The translations under genes and the position numbers were made by a program. Of a stretch of 64,000 nt of DNA, positions 4,301 through 12,316 are shown piece after piece (the first letter of the stretch is position 1; the number at the start of each line of letters is the position of its first letter). Below the pieces are notes generated by a model. The model was given only the letters and a program-made list of their open reading frames with translations. It had not been told where the DNA came from and did no database searches. The DNA lies in NCBI RefSeq assembly GCF_000203815.1, contig NW_004457735.1, positions 1,550,001 to 1,614,000 of the forward strand, written 5' to 3'. This DNA comes from Cavenderia fasciculata. Lineage: Eukaryota > Evosea > Eumycetozoa > Acytosteliales > Cavenderiaceae.

Positions 4301-7300
4301 GGAAGAACGTGTTGAATGACGACCAGTACATCTTGATTCTGTGTCAAAACATTCAAAGACTACTCGAAGAGAGTGAAAAGAATTGGGAGTCTCACTATCA
4401 ACTCACCTTTTTCATTCAGTTGATTACAACCATCTCAAATATTGCCGATCTCGCAGACAATCAAATGCTCTTGGACACGTTGGCCATGTGTCGTGGTGTT
4501 GCTCAAAAGTGGACCGAAAAACTCGAAGGTTTGCGTAGCAAGGCCCTTTTAGAGAAAAACAATGAAGAGTCTCAATACTATCAAAGCAAATTGGTGCATG
4601 CCAGCATTTGCACAGTCTTGACATTTGACTGTCTTCCCGAAATCGATGATATCAAAGGATTAGAATATCTCAAAGCCATCTCAACCATTAAAAGACACAC
4701 CTTTAATGAAGCATTGACCATCACTACCGTCGACCCTGAACTTTTCAGTCATCTAATGGTCAAAGTCAATTGTATTTCATATCAAATGGCAATGCAATTA
4801 AATGTTCATTTAGAAACTCAAGATGCAGTTTTAACAAACTTTGTTTCTCGTCAAATGGGTAATCATAGAAGAGAACAAACCGTACTTCAAAATCAAAATC
4901 AAAATAATAATAATAATAATAACAATAATAATAATAATAATGAAGATCATTATGCACATCAAGATCAATATACCTATACTAGATGGAAAAAGATTAATGA
5001 AAGTGGAGTACTTTGGACAAGTAGTAGAAGTGATGGTGTTTCAGTACAAGTTGGTATTTTCGATGGCTCCTTTTTCATTAATGGTGTATCATTGTTTAGA
5101 CTTCCACCAGATGTTGAAAATAATACACTTTTCCGTAACACATTTGGTGGTTGTATTTTAGATGTTGAAGTTATTGGTGATAGAAGATGGTAAATATTTA
5201 AAAACAAAAACACACAAAAATTTTAATATATTAATATTAATTTTTTTTTATATTTATTTTAGGAAAACAAGTAGAAATTATAATGGTAGATATTATGAAT
5301 TTGCGTTAATAGATGTTGAAGATGCACAACCAGATGTTATTATTCTTGAAAAGAATGAAACAAGTGGAAATGATACATGGTATTTATTGGATCCAAAGTA
5401 CTTGAAGGATAATGATGTCCCACCTTCAATGGCCAGAGAATACTCTCATTGGGTAAATCCTCACTCTTGGGCTATTCAGTTCCGTCCCATCAGTTTTACA
5501 AAGTTTGCCAAATTCTTTGCCAGTGAACCAAAGTACTCTGGAAACATTCACAATGGTGAAATATTAAACGACAAGAAACAAGCACTCGTCAACTATAACA
5601 ATTTTAATCTTCAGGTTAAAAAGTCGATTGAAAAGGTTTTCAATATGGCAAGTCCTGAACACATTCACATTTTCCTTGCCGGTGAAAACACCTATCTCAT
5701 TCACCTTTACCAATATGGTCTCGATTTCCTCACCTCGGTAGATCGAACGAATTCTGCCAAACCAATTGGAACCATCACATCACTCCAATACTATGGATAT
5801 CAGATTGCCAATCAACAATTCCTTGGTACTTTAATTGGTCTTAAAACTATTCTAGTTTTGGAACCAAGTATTGCTGGTATTTCTGATAAAAAGGTTATTC
5901 TTCCTCATGCTTCATTTAGAGCTGCTCATAAAGGTAAAAAAAAAGAAAAGAAAAGAAAAGAAAATATAAATATTATTTATTCTAATTTCTTTTTTTTTTT
6001 CTATTTTTTTTAGAACCAACTAGTACAAGATATAAAACAAAGTTTCATCATACAACAGCAGATACTTCAAATCTTCAACATCCAGCCTACTTTATTTACA
6101 ATGTAGATGAAGAATTGGGTTTGTTAAAGGCAACCAATACCGAAGCAAACCTTCAGTTGGCTTTTGCTCATGTCATGACTAGTCAATGTTTCCCTGATCC
6201 ATTTACTGGTATTAGTGGTGTTGAATCTGCTATTGAAAAGTTACAGAGATTCCAAATCAATGTTCCACTTTCCGATCAATCAATGTCGATTCTCCAAAAC
6301 ATTGGACATATCTCACCTATTCGTAATCCATTCCCACCATCACAAAAAAAGAAAGACCGTGCTCCCATATTCCAAACCGTCGAGTACACTTACCCCAAGT
6401 TACCAGCCACCTATGACTTTTTGGTTATTTATGCACTCGATCTGATTGCAAAGTCCAACGGTCTGTCATTCCTTCATCCACATCATCAACAACAACAAAA
6501 AGAAAAGGAAGAGAAGGAAAAGGACGAAAAAGACAGAAAACAATTGCCCAAGGTCGCCATGTTGAATGAAATTGCATGCATTCGAAACCAACACATGATT
6601 CCAATTCAATCTGTGCCAATTAGTTCTAGTACACTCAGCAAATACAAGAAAAAGGAATACTTGGCTGGACATTCCCCAACCGATGTAGTAGGATACATTG
6701 CACGTACTGCCTACCTCTTTGAAACACCACAAGTCGGTATGCCAATTATCAACTTTGACCCAGTCGAATTTATCAAGCAATCGGTTATTTGCAAGGGTAT
6801 GCGTGGTCCAGTCTATTACAACAGTTTCGCAGACTTGTTTAATCTTGCGTTCCCACTCGTCAAGGATGAGAGACAAATCGTTTCAGAGTATTGGATTTCA
6901 TTGTACACCTATCTTTTCAAGGTGGGAAGAGGAGACTCTGAAAAATTCAAATATGTTTTGACCTATCTCCAACTGTACTGGGGTTACCAGAAACAAACGT
7001 TTGACCATCTCGTATTCCTCTGTCGTACGGCTACTCCCATTCCCGACCCTGAACTGTACATCAAGTTGACAACCTACCCCAACCCAGCAGAGACATTCTC
7101 AGAGGGACCAATCAAATCGGCCATTGAGAAATTCTATCTCCAAGACAATGATATGTCGAGCTATGGTGTTGTCAGAGGTATATTAAAACAAGCTCTCATT
7201 GCCAACGTATGGGAAAAGACAGCAGGTGAGATTATTGCACCCAAGTACATTTGGAATATCAAGCCTGGATCACCACACACTCAACACGTCGATGTTGATT

Positions 7301-10300
7301 CCCTCAATGTAGCATTGACCAGAATCTTCCAGACATGGATTGATAATCGTAAACTTCAACAGTTTGGTGAAAAGGTGTACCATATTATTAGAGAAGCAGA
7401 CTATAACACGATCGATGTGCCAAAGAGCAGACTTGTGCTGATTCAAGCAAACATTGCACAAGACATGGAAGAGGATGAGTTTTATATGGGCATCCACGCA
7501 CAAGGACAGCAAGCTATCGAGTCACCAATCGACCAAAGATGGTTAGACTTGTGGGAGAATGGTTATGACGTTGAATTTGAACAGGCACTCAACAATTTGA
7601 ACCAACAACAAGTACCTACCAACCAAATGATTAGAACACCTGCTTTGGACTCGTTTTTGGAGGTTGCCAACATTGACACTACAATGAAGAGCATTTTCTA
7701 TCAAGATTTGAAAGAGAGCAAAATTTCACTCGTTCAACACATCAAAGATACCAACGATACACGTGGTGTATTGGCAGGTGATGACAAGATCAAAGCCGAG
7801 CTCACCAACCTACTCGAACAAATCAACGAATGTTCAGCTGACATTTGGAAGATTGTATCTACCTATTATCATGCATCAAATGATGATCTCCAGAAAATGT
7901 ATCAAATTGTAGGTCTTAAAAAGAAACCAGTTTGGATTACAGCCTATGCCGATTTTGACAAACAACAACTCTACAAGAACCAAGAAAATTACAACGAGAA
8001 TACACTTCCAGAAAAGGTGTATCAATTGATTGGTGCTCACATCCTACTTCGTACCTACTCTCAAAAGGTCAAGAGATGTATGACCAAAAAGAATGGAGAC
8101 TTGCAGTCTGAACTTAAACATACTAGATTCACTCGTAAATGGGTACCATCTCAATACCCATCTTGGATTCTTTTTGAATTGGAACAGAATCTATGGATTC
8201 GTGACGATCAGGCTGAAATTGCAATGATGCTGCTTAGTAGTGAAAAGAATGTCTGTACGCAGATGCAAATGGGTGAAGGTAAAACATCGGTTATTCTACC
8301 CATTATGTGTTTGGCCATGTCCAACTCTGCCAAGGGAGTACCTAGAATCTCTGTTTTACTCTCACTGTTCAAGACCACTATCCAGGATCTTCAAAAACGT
8401 CTTGCCTCTGCCATCATCAACCATCCCATCTTTGTATTCCCATTCAAGCGTGATATGGGCAGCGTACTCAAGAATGAAGAGATTGAAAAGGTCAAACAAA
8501 ATCTCGAGAGTTGCAAGAGAGAACGTGGTATCATTTTATGTCACCCTGAACACTTTTTGTCATTCATGTTGTACTGGAAACTTCACTTTGAAAAGCTTGG
8601 CTCGATGCGTCATATTCTAGAATGGTACAATGACAATGTATTTGATATTATGGATGAATGTGATGAATTGCTTTCATTTAAATACCAATTACTCTATCCA
8701 TGTGGTACAAAGTCTAGCTTGGATGGTGGATCTGGTAGATGGTCTCTTATCCAAGAGGTACTATTAGAGTTGAAAAAACTCCCTCATCAAGGTTTAAATG
8801 ACCACGTTGTTGAATGGATAGACAGAGGATCGGCAAGATTCCCAATGATCACTGTTTATGACCCTAAAGAAGGTTTGGTTCTCTGCAAGAAACTCTTGGA
8901 TACCATGTTAAGTAATCTTCCATTCCACTCTACCACCGAGCAAAGTCAATGTATTCAAAAGTTTTGTTGGAAGGATATTGACACTTCGCTACAAGATCAC
9001 CAAGAAAACTATAAAAAGATCCAATCGTTTAGCAAGAATCAAGATATTATCAATAGATTGTTGGTTTATAGAGGTTTGTTTAGTTATGATATCCTCTTGC
9101 ACTCTTTGCAAAAGATTTGGTCCAAGGATTATGGCACACGTGACTTGGAACGCAAGACTGGCAACCATTCAACACTGATGGCTGTTCCATACCGTGCCAA
9201 AGACACACCATCTGAACGTGCAGAGTATGGACACCCAGAGTTTTCAATTCTCCTCACTCACTATACCTACTATAGTCAAGGTTTGAACTTGAAACAATGT
9301 AAAGAGGCGTTGGACCGATTGTTAAACAGATACAAACACACAGCTGCTGACATTTACAAGTCATGGGTCGAATTTGATGGAACCATCAGTGCAGAGTACT
9401 TGGACATTAAGTGTGTCTTGTTGTCTGACAGTTCGTTGGTCAAAGAACTTCACACACTCTTTAAATACAACATGAAGACAATCAACTTTTGGTTAAACGA
9501 ATTTGTATTCCCACAAGAACTCAAGACCTACTCTGACAAGTTGTCTGCCAATCCATGGCATATAGTATCGGAAAAGAAACTTAGATCATCTGGTTTCTCT
9601 GGTACCAATGATACTAGATGGCTCTATCCCATCTACATCTCTCAACAGGATCTTGGAAAGTTGAAATACACCAACATCCAAGTCATCCATTATATTCTCG
9701 GTCAACAAGCTGCCTACAATGAAGTACATGTACTCAAGCGATCCGACGACATTATCCAAAGATTGGTAGATATGAAAGTCAACAAGAATGTATTCCCCAA
9801 TGTGTTTATTGATGCTGGTGCACTCATGGTAGATCGTACCAATCTCAAAGTTGCCAAGACATGGTTGGAAATGACACCAAGAGAACGTGTTGATGGTGTT
9901 GTCTTTTTCCATGAAGATAAGCTTACAACACTTGATCGTGAAGGCAAACTCCATCTCTATGACCAGAGTACTTTTACCGATCGTATGGATCGTGTGTTGG
10001 TGTATTTGGACGACTACCATACACGTGGTGTCGACATTAAACTGCCAGTTGGTTCTCATGCCATCGTCACGGTCGGTGTCAACATGACCAAAGAAAAGCT
10101 CCTTCAAGCATGTATGAGAATGAGAAAACTGGGTAATGGTCACACCATTTCCATGATGATTAGAGAGCAGATGGATGTAGGACACAGTGTAAACGAGATT
10201 ATCCATTGGACCATTTCAAACTCGATCAACCATATTATCTCTGGTTTCCCACTTTGGTCATTCCAAGGTATGGAGTTTTCTCGAAGCAATGTTGGTTTGG

Positions 10301-11469
10301 GACTTGCCGATACCAACTCCAAGGTCTTTCAAAAGATCTCATCGTTCCCTTCTCGGGTCACACTCGACATTATGTATGCAGGTCACTTTACCGAGCGAAA
10401 GATTGTCGATGTCGTACAGGAACATAGCAAGATTGTAAAGGCGATTTTCAAAGTCAATACAAAGGGACTTGACGAAGAACTCCAACAAGATCTACTCGAC
10501 AAGCAAAAAGAGATCTTGTTTAACATTAACAAACACACCAATACGCTCATCCCCGATGCAACCGTATCTTCAGTGTCATTGGAAATGGAAGAGGAACGTG
10601 AATTTGAAATAGAACAGGAAAACGAAGAAGAACGTCAGCTTCCCGGCAATGCCAACCCTGTCGCTCTCAATGCCATCGATCGCAGTTTGTTGGATCTCGT
10701 TATTGGACGAAAGACCATCAAAGACAAGATTGAATGTATCAAGCCAATTGCCAAGATCTTTTCACAAACCTCTCTCGACGGTCTCATCCAACAAGGTTTG
10801 TTTAGCACCAAGCTACACGTAACCTCTGCCTTTTTAAATTCCGTGTCTGATGATATCAAGCGTGACGACTATTTCAAGCAACTCAACTATTGTCTGTGTA
10901 TTTGGAATGCAGATGGTAACCCAGACATCATCCTCGTATCAATGCATGAAGCATCCCAACTTCTTCCTTTTATCACAAAGCATTTAAAGAATCCAACCAT
11001 CCTCAAGGGTTCTTTGCATCAAACCCTCAGTCACTGGAATGCCAACCAAGAAGAATACTTTTTGAAACAGTATACGCCCGTCCCCGCCCACGTCACTCCA
11101 GACCACCTCCAATCTACATTCCTTCAAAACCTTTTGCTCCATTTGAATGTACTCAATGGAAGCAAATACTTTGACAATCGTCTCGAAGAATTACATGAAT
11201 TCCTCGGAATCTATATATCAAAGGACAGAGACGTAATGTGCCAACTCATCGACAAGGGCTTTGTTGACAGTTTGGGATATGTCGTTAAACTCCCCGCCAA
11301 GAAACCTGCCGACCTCGAGGATGACGCCGTCTGGGAGAAACTCAAATCTACCAAAACCTCTTGCAAATTTAAATCAAATCCTTTACTCTTTATTCGTAGA
11401 AACTTTGAATTAAATAGAATTCATTCACTAAACTTTAGTGATTTCCAAAATCTTTTAATTAATAAATAA
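1375..11469 (+). CDS. Giant DUF3638/DUF3645 protein with SecA-like ATPase motifs
   Basis: Three exons, 1375-5189, 5263-5933 and 6014-11469, joined in phase (TG|G and G|AA), give about 3313 residues. The N-terminal 120 residues are acidic and Ser-rich, probably disordered. Around residues 1205-1265 lies the INGVSLFRLPP block typical of the family. The C-terminal third holds DUF3638: MGEGKTSVILP near residue 2249 looks like a Walker A of SecA type, MDECDE near 2376 looks like a DEAD-type Walker B, TRGVDIKLP near 2833 matches helicase motif V, and QACMRMRKLG near 2860 matches motif VI. This motif order suggests an SF2/SecA-like ATPase. Family members in fungi and protists are described only as DUF3638/DUF3645 proteins, sometimes as ubiquitin-hydrolase-like; the true role is unknown. 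Asn-rich runs near 4900-4940 are ordinary for dictyostelids. Confidence 0.9.
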
Positions 11470-11554
11470 ATCAAATCAAATAATAATAATATTATATTGA
11501 ACAAACATCTCAAATAATATATTATATATTTCTTTTAAATTAAATTAAGGGGGT

Positions 11555-11780
11555 GTGGAGTCTACCATTGTATTACCATGATAATAGTGCGATTCATGGT
11601 CGATAGAAGACTATTTACAATTGAACAACATAGTTGTCATTGATATAATAGTCTTGAATGCTCCGTAAATAAATTAGATTAATCATTAAAGCCATCGCAA
11701 CGTGTGGAGGCAGAAAGAGATTAAGCTTTCTAGAACAGATACTACACATAATCAGAGCATAAACTCTGAGAGAAGGTGTT
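11555..11780 (-). ncRNA. Divergent U2 spliceosomal snRNA
   Basis: The minus strand carries GTGTAGTATCTGTTCT (11732-11747), identical to the branch-site recognition region of U2 snRNA. Around it, in U2 order, are: a pyrimidine-rich 5' end (ACACCTTCTC, 11770-11779) like the U2/U6 helix II strand; a stem-loop I (TCAGAG/CTCTGA); GCT and GATT at the spacing used for U2/U6 helices Ib and Ia; stem-loop IIa (AGAAAG/CTTTCT with a TTAAT-type loop); a likely Sm site AATTTATTTAC (near 11665-11676); a stem III (AAGACTATT/AATAGTCTT, 11607-11655); and stem IV (ACCATGA/TCATGGT, 11575-11600). Stem sequences differ from textbook U2 but keep pairing. Ends are estimated within about 10 bases. Several U2 variants are known in D. 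discoideum; this may be one such variant or the species' main U2. Confidence 0.85.
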
Positions 11781-11834
11781 TGGCCACAAGGCTATTAAAC
11801 CAAGTGACAATTCTTTTCGATCACTCTACCAGTG

Positions 11835-11852
11835 TATTTATAGTTGTTGGGT
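11835..11852 (-). promoter_or_regulatory. DUSE-like element and TATA box upstream of the U2 gene
   Basis: On the minus strand, CACCCAACAA (complement of 11844-11853) lies about 66-70 bases before the inferred U2 5' end. It resembles the dictyostelid ncRNA upstream sequence element (A/T)CCCA(T/A)AA, which sits at about -60. It is followed at once by TATAAATA (complement of 11835-11842). The match is imperfect, but its position supports a real snRNA gene. Confidence 0.5.
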
Positions 11853-11984
11853 GATCTATTTGTGAATATTGAATAATAAAGATTATTTTGAGTATTCAAG
11901 AAAATTATTGAATCTATTTTTCATTGTTGCAAAAAAAAGTATATTTTACTAGTGTAAATAATACAAAACTATATTTCTTTCAAG

Positions 11985-12316
11985 ATGAAAGTTACTATTC
12001 GAAAATGGCAGACCGTATCTTCGTGGCATTGGGATGTTAGTGAAGAATGTTGTGGTATATGTCGTATGCAATTCGACGCTTGTTGTGTTGACTGCAAAAT
12101 GCCAGGTGACGATTGTCCTCCAGGTATGTTTTAAATGATCATCAACCGATCACTTTATTGGTCAATCACACTAAACCCCGATTATCTTTACTGTATATAG
12201 TTTGGGGTGCTTGTAAACACGCCTTTCATATGCATTGTATCTTAAAATGGTTAAATTCTAATCAACAACAATGCCCAATGTGTCGATCTAATTGGGAATT
12301 TGTTACTACCGATTAG
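11985..12316 (+). CDS. anapc11: Anaphase-promoting complex subunit 11 (RING-H2)
   Basis: Two exons, 11985-12123 and 12201-12316, joined as G|TT, give 84 residues, the usual APC11 length. APC11 is the catalytic RING subunit of the APC/C ubiquitin ligase, which recruits E2 enzymes to mark cyclins and securin for the proteasome in mitosis. The family signature runs almost unbroken: MKVTIRKWQTVSSWHWD, then CCGICRMQFDACCVDCKMPG, DDCP, VWGACKHAFHMHCILKW and CPMCRSNWEF. The Cys and His ligands of the RING and the extra APC11 zinc site are all present. The intron falls just before the conserved V/IWG. The start ATG is fixed by the conserved MKV N-terminus. Confidence 0.96.

Follow-up and report, generated by a model that had tools for sequence, protein, structure and literature searches.

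Variant U2 snRNAs of Dictyostelium discoideum are said, in the abstract of a 2006 study by Hinas and colleagues, to have an additional predicted 5′ stem-loop, to be enriched in the cytoplasm and to be regulated in development, and all the verified genes of that work are reportedly preceded by a DUSE-type promoter. We looked into a U2 gene of another dictyostelid, Cavenderia fasciculata, and into its relatives in the same genome, which fall into an ordinary class (n = 2) and a divergent class (n = 5); we refer to these as U2A and U2B, labels coined in this analysis. Like the D. discoideum variants, with which it was compared by description only, U2B consists of divergent U2 genes in a dictyostelid. 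The 5′ stem-loop reported for those variants would fit a hairpin that lies upstream of the U2B body and that we infer to be transcribed. In contrast, the DUSE that reportedly stands about 60 bases upstream of the variants is not found in U2B (0/5 exact), which has TATAAATA. With ordinary U2 as modelled by RF00004, U2B shares the branch-site segment, the U6-pairing region, stem-loops I and IIa and the loop of stem-loop IV, but it differs in having GATT for GATC and a stem-loop III without GCUUGC. It also differs from the U2A of its own genome in the sequence that follows the Sm site (56 to 58% identity), in its promoter word and in its upstream hairpin.

The accessible text of PMC4291461 states that, as D. 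discoideum develops, one group of its U2 isoforms drops strongly in comparison with the other, so that variation of this kind is already known. Stage-specific snRNA isoforms are described there for sea urchin, silk moth, Xenopus, mouse and Drosophila as well; these and U2B are alike in being paralogous snRNA genes, and use of U2B by stage is a possibility. A promoter change together with an added 5′ hairpin, as proposed here for U2B, is not described for those stage-specific isoforms in the accessible text of PMC4291461. Beyond the D. discoideum work, titles and abstract openings yielded no publication on U2 variants or TATA-type snRNA promoters in dictyostelids, and we make no claim that these are unpublished. 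The new points are the U2B promoter, a parallel in U1 and the match to U6.

The window gene and the two U2 classes

We searched the window, by which we mean the whole 64,000-nucleotide stretch of DNA that was analysed (G+C, 35%; genome, 31.0 Mb), against Rfam. The U2 covariance model RF00004 matched on the minus strand with 58.8 bits (gathering cut-off, 46; E = 4.5e-9), and the match spans model positions 1 to 192 of 192, the full length of the model. U2 was the window's only Rfam match at gathering thresholds and the only one in 11400-12000 even with E values up to 1. The preliminary description had called for this comparison with Infernal and had placed a U2 gene in the gap between a DUF3638 gene and APC11; the score is above the cut-off, and the neighbors were found as stated (DUF3638 gene, 6175-11469, plus strand; APC11 exon 1, from 11985, plus strand). 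The coordinates of the features are collected in Table 1.

Table 1. Features of the window U2 gene and its flanks, with the U1 loci that have the same promoter word
Feature	Position	Strand	Basis
TTAATTTAATTTAA, candidate 3′-end element	11535..11548	-	TTAATTTAA match (at most 1 mismatch)
U2 snRNA body	11555..11777	-	Rfam RF00004, 58.8 bits
Stem-loop IV, loop ATCGCAC	11562..11606	-	drawn fold
Stem-loop III, without consensus GCUUGC	11607..11655	-	comparison with Rfam consensus
AATTTAT, putative Sm site, common to 7/7 U2 loci	11669..11675	-	sequence comparison
Stem-loop IIb (contig-3 copies: one bulged base)	11691..11711	-	drawn fold
Stem-loop IIa	11712..11731	-	drawn fold
Branch-site recognition segment, 16/16 bases	11732..11747	-	exact-pattern search
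GATT, U6-pairing element (contig-12 copies: GATC)	11750..11753	-	sequence comparison
Stem-loop I	11752..11769	-	drawn fold
Conserved leader block, putative first 35 bases of the RNA; hairpin 11783-11808	11778..11812	-	conservation and fold
TATAAATA, -65 from U2 body, likely core promoter element	11835..11842	-	5/5 U2B, 3/5 U1, 0/11 others
ACCCAACA, one mismatch from DUSE	11845..11852	-	absent from other four U2B copies
A+T-rich upstream block (about -156 to -109), contig-1/contig-3 U2B	11886..11933	-	85% over 48 bases, E 3e-9
U1 loci with TATAAATA (L027, L026, L025)	contig 1: 302285-302437, 320170-320337, 323477-323644		promoter word

By the sequence criteria that can be tested, the window gene is a U2. 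The branch-site recognition segment GTGTAGTATCTGTTCT, for which 16 of 16 bases had been claimed, is exact (11747-11732), and across the genome this exact pattern occurs at seven places, all of them inside U2 loci (7/7), while the reversed control pattern occurs at none. Two places with one mismatch, on contigs 17 and 21, had no surrounding U2 by eye and were set aside. The spacing GCT-2-GATT-2-GTGTAGTA is present as described, with the U6-pairing elements GCT and GATT in place and a U2 5′ end that is complementary to the 3′ part of U6. Stem-loops I, IIa, IIb, III and IV can all be drawn, in agreement with the claim that pairing is retained. The claim that variation is confined to the stems does not hold: the helix-I element reads GATT and not GATC, and GCUUGC has been lost from stem-loop III. 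The putative Sm site AATTTAT is present in all seven U2 loci, but the bases after it depart from the Rfam consensus AAUUUUUGG. All seven also share the loop ATCGCAC of stem-loop IV; in the divergent class the stem is kept, with changes on both sides relative to the ordinary class. Taken together, the U2 gene of the preliminary description is real, the details given there were confirmed in part, and the interpretation as a whole is partly supported.

Scoring of 46 of 1831 candidates gave seven U2 loci in the genome, the same seven that the branch-segment search had found. The two U2A genes are on contig 12 (84014-84219 and 98020-98225; 95.5 and 95.3 bits), and the five U2B genes are on contig 1, contig 5 and contig 3 (n = 3, window copy included), with scores of 58.5 to 64.7 bits. 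A clearly better U2 set elsewhere, which the preliminary description had counted as one part of the case against its own reading, exists in these two higher-scoring genes of contig 12. The U2A pair is near-identical, in opposite orientation and 14 kb apart; likewise, the contig-3 U2B copies at 1480452-1480674 and 1488863-1489085 are near-identical, in opposite orientation and 8 kb apart, an arrangement that could favor gene conversion. The contig-3 copies are 99% identical to the window copy over the RNA.

We compared the copies on contigs 1 and 5 and the window copy with U2A. Over the first 67 bases, 64 or 65 of the 67 match; from base 67 to the Sm site, identity is 73 to 78%, and past the Sm site it falls to 56 to 58% (shuffled mean, 49%). 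The U6-pairing site is GATT in 5/5 U2B and GATC in 2/2 U2A, and the GCUUGC of the Rfam consensus stem-loop III is kept in U2A and lost in U2B. Between the classes, both partners differ in two pairs of stem IIb and in three pairs of stem IV, and this holds for each of the U2B lineages (3/3), as counted on stems entered by hand. One further pair of stem IV is changed in the window copy, and contigs 1 and 5 have G-A there.

Constraint on the divergent class

Identity among the U2B copies of contigs 1, 5 and 3 is 94 to 98% over the first 109 bases and 79 to 87% over the remainder. Over the 100 bases that begin about 25 bases downstream of the gene, two of the three comparisons do not rise above background (182 and 239 of 300 shuffles do as well), and the remaining one, contig 5 versus the window, gives 60% identity (3 of 300 shuffles do as well). 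The 65 bases directly before the TATA word TATAAATA are 49 to 56% identical (128, 76 and 19 of 300 shuffles as good). Farther upstream, the U2B genes of contigs 1 and 3 resemble each other in a block at about -160 to -109 (85 to 88% over 43 to 51 bases), and contig 5 shows a weaker likeness; the block is a possible distal promoter element. Because the body is conserved and most flanks have drifted, either the RNA body is held by selection or gene conversion is mostly limited to the body.

The latter branch leads to an alternative that we consider improbable, namely, that U2B consists of nonfunctional copies kept alike by gene conversion. The absence of an exact DUSE, the existence of two better-scoring U2 genes, the 99% likeness of the contig-3 copies over the RNA and the inverted near-identical copies 8 kb apart would all suit it. 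So would the pattern inside the class, where none of 54 pairs is changed on both sides (95.6% of 270 cells are paired) and shuffles equal or exceed the covariation score in 500/500 cases, so that covariation inside U2B gives no support. However, the identities given above are kept in three lineages, with other stretches close to background; U2B agrees with the ordinary class over its first 67 bases although the 3′ domain differs by half; and pairs have changed on both sides between the classes. U2B is thus very probably a genuine divergent U2 gene family under constraint, as judged from sequence conservation, and the preliminary description's view of a constrained divergent U2, rather than a decayed copy, is borne out by five copies in three lineages that keep the splicing elements while most flanks have drifted.

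Promoter, leader and 3′ end

We searched the region from -160 to -1 of the snRNA loci for the DUSE pattern [AT]CCCA[AT]AA, taken from the accessible text of PMC3188802, where DUSE is placed at about -63 of many D. discoideum noncoding RNAs; a DUSE with CCC is given for dictyostelid Groups 1 and 4 in the available part of PMC7919456. An exact DUSE was found at -61 in 2/2 U2A, at -63 in 2/2 ordinary U1, at -92 in 2/2 U5 and at -66 in the one complete U6, and in none of the five U2B loci (0/5) over the same region. One-mismatch DUSE words occur in 4/5 U2B (window, -75 and -116; one contig-3 copy, -116; contig 5, -129; contig 1, -70, -124 and -125). The DUSE-like motif that had been reported 66 to 70 bases upstream of the window gene is in fact ACCCAACA at -75 to -68, with one mismatch, and none of the other four U2B copies shares it (0/4). 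DUSE as the promoter of the U2B class is not supported. According to the available part of PMC7919456, high-scoring dictyostelid Class I RNA candidates without a DUSE at the right place were not expressed, which speaks against the model of U2B proposed below.

The TATA word TATAAATA occurs exactly once in the region from -160 to -1 of each of the five U2B genes, at -61, -62 and -65 (the last in three copies). It also occurs in three of the five U1 loci, at -33 or -34, and in 0/11 other snRNA loci, against a background of 18 occurrences in 50,160 bases of flank; the resulting contrast of 8/8 with 0/11 is partly circular for U1, since these loci were grouped by promoter and not by RNA similarity. 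The usual distance from a TATA element to the start of transcription is about thirty bases. About 30 bases after TATAAATA, U2B has a conserved leader block, and this distance makes the beginning of the RNA the most plausible reading of the block. Measured from TATA+30, an edge chosen by eye (realignment put the beginning of the conservation at about TATA+25), the block is 31, 32 and 35 bases long in the three lineages, which are 82%, 74% and 70% identical to each other; in none of these comparisons did any of 300 shuffles do as well. Identity in the 22 bases that precede the block is 48%, 59% and 45% (109, 1 and 64 of 300 shuffles as good), the value of 59% being that of contig 1 versus the window. 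The leader folds into a hairpin with z scores, relative to dinucleotide shuffles, of -2.92 in the window, -2.79 in contig 1 and -4.37 in contig 5; the 35 bases before one U2A gene give a weaker and different fold (z, -2.10), and at the other U2A gene (C12b) a hairpin that overlaps the start of the body can also be drawn. Used as a DNA query on the genome, the leader found only the three contig-3 copies and missed the leaders of contigs 1 and 5; the query is thus insensitive, and other genes may have the leader.

One alternative is that U2B works but that its RNA starts at the U2 body, with TATAAATA an altered DUSE and the conserved block promoter DNA. The distance from TATAAATA to the body in U2B (-61 to -65) coincides with that of the DUSE in U2A (-61), so that the word could be a decayed DUSE; both words contain ATAAAT, a DUSE word with one mismatch stands at -70 in the contig-1 copy as well, and all five U2B bodies retain the U6-pairing U2 5′ end. 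Yet TATAAATA stands 61, 62 or 65 bases from the body, depending on the copy, whereas its distance to the TGTCA of the leader is 33 in every copy but that of contig 5, where it is 35. Moreover, the leader block folds as a hairpin in each lineage, and the same word stands at a TATA-like distance, -33 or -34, in three U1 genes. On balance, we regard a start at the body as unlikely and prefer a U2B transcribed from a TATA-type promoter with the hairpin as its leader, to which we give a probability of roughly 60%.

The polymerase is probably RNA polymerase II, for two reasons. First, a run of five T lies inside the contig-1 and contig-5 U2B copies, and such a run would presumably stop RNA polymerase III. 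Second, TTAATTTAA (with at most one mismatch) is present within 60 bases downstream of 15/19 snRNA loci, starting 4 to 25 bases past the Rfam end, and under the same settings it is absent from both U6 loci (0/2); it is also missing at 2/3 U4 loci. By chance it occurs in 40/1066 60-base pieces of the window and in 29/298 of those with less than 30% G+C. We regard TTAATTTAA as a candidate 3′-end signal of polymerase II snRNA genes in this genome.

According to the model with a transcribed leader, RNA polymerase II would start about 30 bases after TATAAATA and about 35 bases before the U2 body, giving a transcript from about 11812 to 11555 (about 258 bases) that would consist of a small 5′ hairpin followed by the U2 body and whose 3′ end would be set by the TTAATTTAA element. 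The RNA would be bound by Sm proteins and assembled into a U2 particle. The branch-site code and the U6 partner of this particle would be those of ordinary U2, with slightly better pairing to that U6, and the altered 3′ half and extra 5′ hairpin of the RNA would change its protein partners or its location. The proposed difference in promoter and the extra hairpin at the front raise the possibility that a core component of the splicing machinery exists here in a second form, U2B, under separate control. With a promoter of its own, U2B could be tuned independently by the cell, most likely in step with growth or with the stage of development, as is reported for U2 isoforms of D. discoideum; U2B is perhaps used in a stage-dependent manner.

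If this is right, the two U2 forms differ in their promoter, their 5′ end and their 3′ half, and also in a single base of the U2/U6 pairing region. Since they nevertheless share the branch-site code and U6, the effects of these differences could be separated, which would make this a tractable system for the old question of whether variant snRNAs alter splicing or are spare copies. Furthermore, searches for dictyostelid small RNAs that require a DUSE would miss such genes.

U6 pairing and the other snRNA loci

Scoring of 48 of 3176 candidates yielded one complete U6, on contig 12 (1211512-1211619); the assembly may lack others. In its U2-pairing region, this U6 has AAAATTAGC where the Rfam consensus has AGATTAGC, so that it reads AGAAAAUUAGC where the consensus reads AGAAGAUUAGC. 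Opposite the changed base, U2A has the C of its GAUC (A-C, unpaired) and U2B has the U of its GAUU (A-U). With the U6 found, the duplex energy is -2.1 kcal/mol for U2A and -3.3 kcal/mol for U2B, as compared with -5.8 and -3.7 kcal/mol, respectively, with the consensus U6; the gain for U2B is small, and its best duplex is in a register shifted from that of the textbook helix. A second U6 copy on contig 12 (1214667-1214764; 32.7 bits, under the cut-off) has no DUSE and shares its 3′ half and downstream flank with the complete U6, its 5′ half being unrelated; it is probably a truncated copy. U6-like matches on contigs 1, 5 and 19 were rejected as not U6 by eye.

Five U1 loci were found, all scoring below the Rfam cut-off of 69.5 bits: two of DUSE type on contig 7 and three, all on contig 1, that lack a DUSE even with one mismatch allowed and have TATAAATA at -33 or -34. 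Ordinary U1 has GATAAATA at -34, one base from the TATA word. Over the RNA, locus e is 64% identical to locus c, and ordinary U1 is 73% identical to locus c; over the upstream 70 bases, c and e are 62% identical (2 of 200 shuffles as good), and ordinary U1 and c are 54% identical (46 of 200 shuffles as good).

The parallel between U1 and U2 might mean that there are two promoter-defined snRNA sets, one with DUSE (U1, U2, U4, U5 and U6) and one of TATA-driven alternative U1 and U2, in which the alternative U2 would have a 5′ hairpin and a better match to U6. We offer this only tentatively, as a doubtful extension of the promoter comparison. A parallel change in the U1 promoter would suggest that the composition of the spliceosome is jointly controlled, and if the two sets existed, raising or lowering the TATA set by life stage would change that composition as a unit. 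Another proposal, that U2B belongs to a second, U12-like spliceosome, could draw on the divergence of U2B and on its having its own promoter, as the three U1 genes do. It is very improbable, however, given that the branch segment is the exact U2 segment and that U12-type splicing is reported missing in Dictyostelium in the accessible text of PMC2846911; a search of the genome with Rfam U12 was empty, as was its control, and is thus uninformative.

Of the three U4 loci, two carry the one-mismatch DUSE word TCCCATGA, at -60 and -65. The third, a divergent U4 on contig 3 (L030, 1843854-1843982; 42.9 bits, cut-off 46) has the one-mismatch DUSE ATCCATAA at -76 and lacks TTAATTTAA downstream. Judged by eye, the matches to the U5 loop on contigs 1, 8 and 14 resemble coding sequence, and they were discarded. 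At the two U5 loci (L031 and L032; C7:336205 and C7:351942), the DUSE stands about 30 bases further upstream than elsewhere, at -92, and the self-complementary AGTGATTCTTCACT (by eye) lies between it and the U5 body, suggesting that U5 may also have a 5′ extension.
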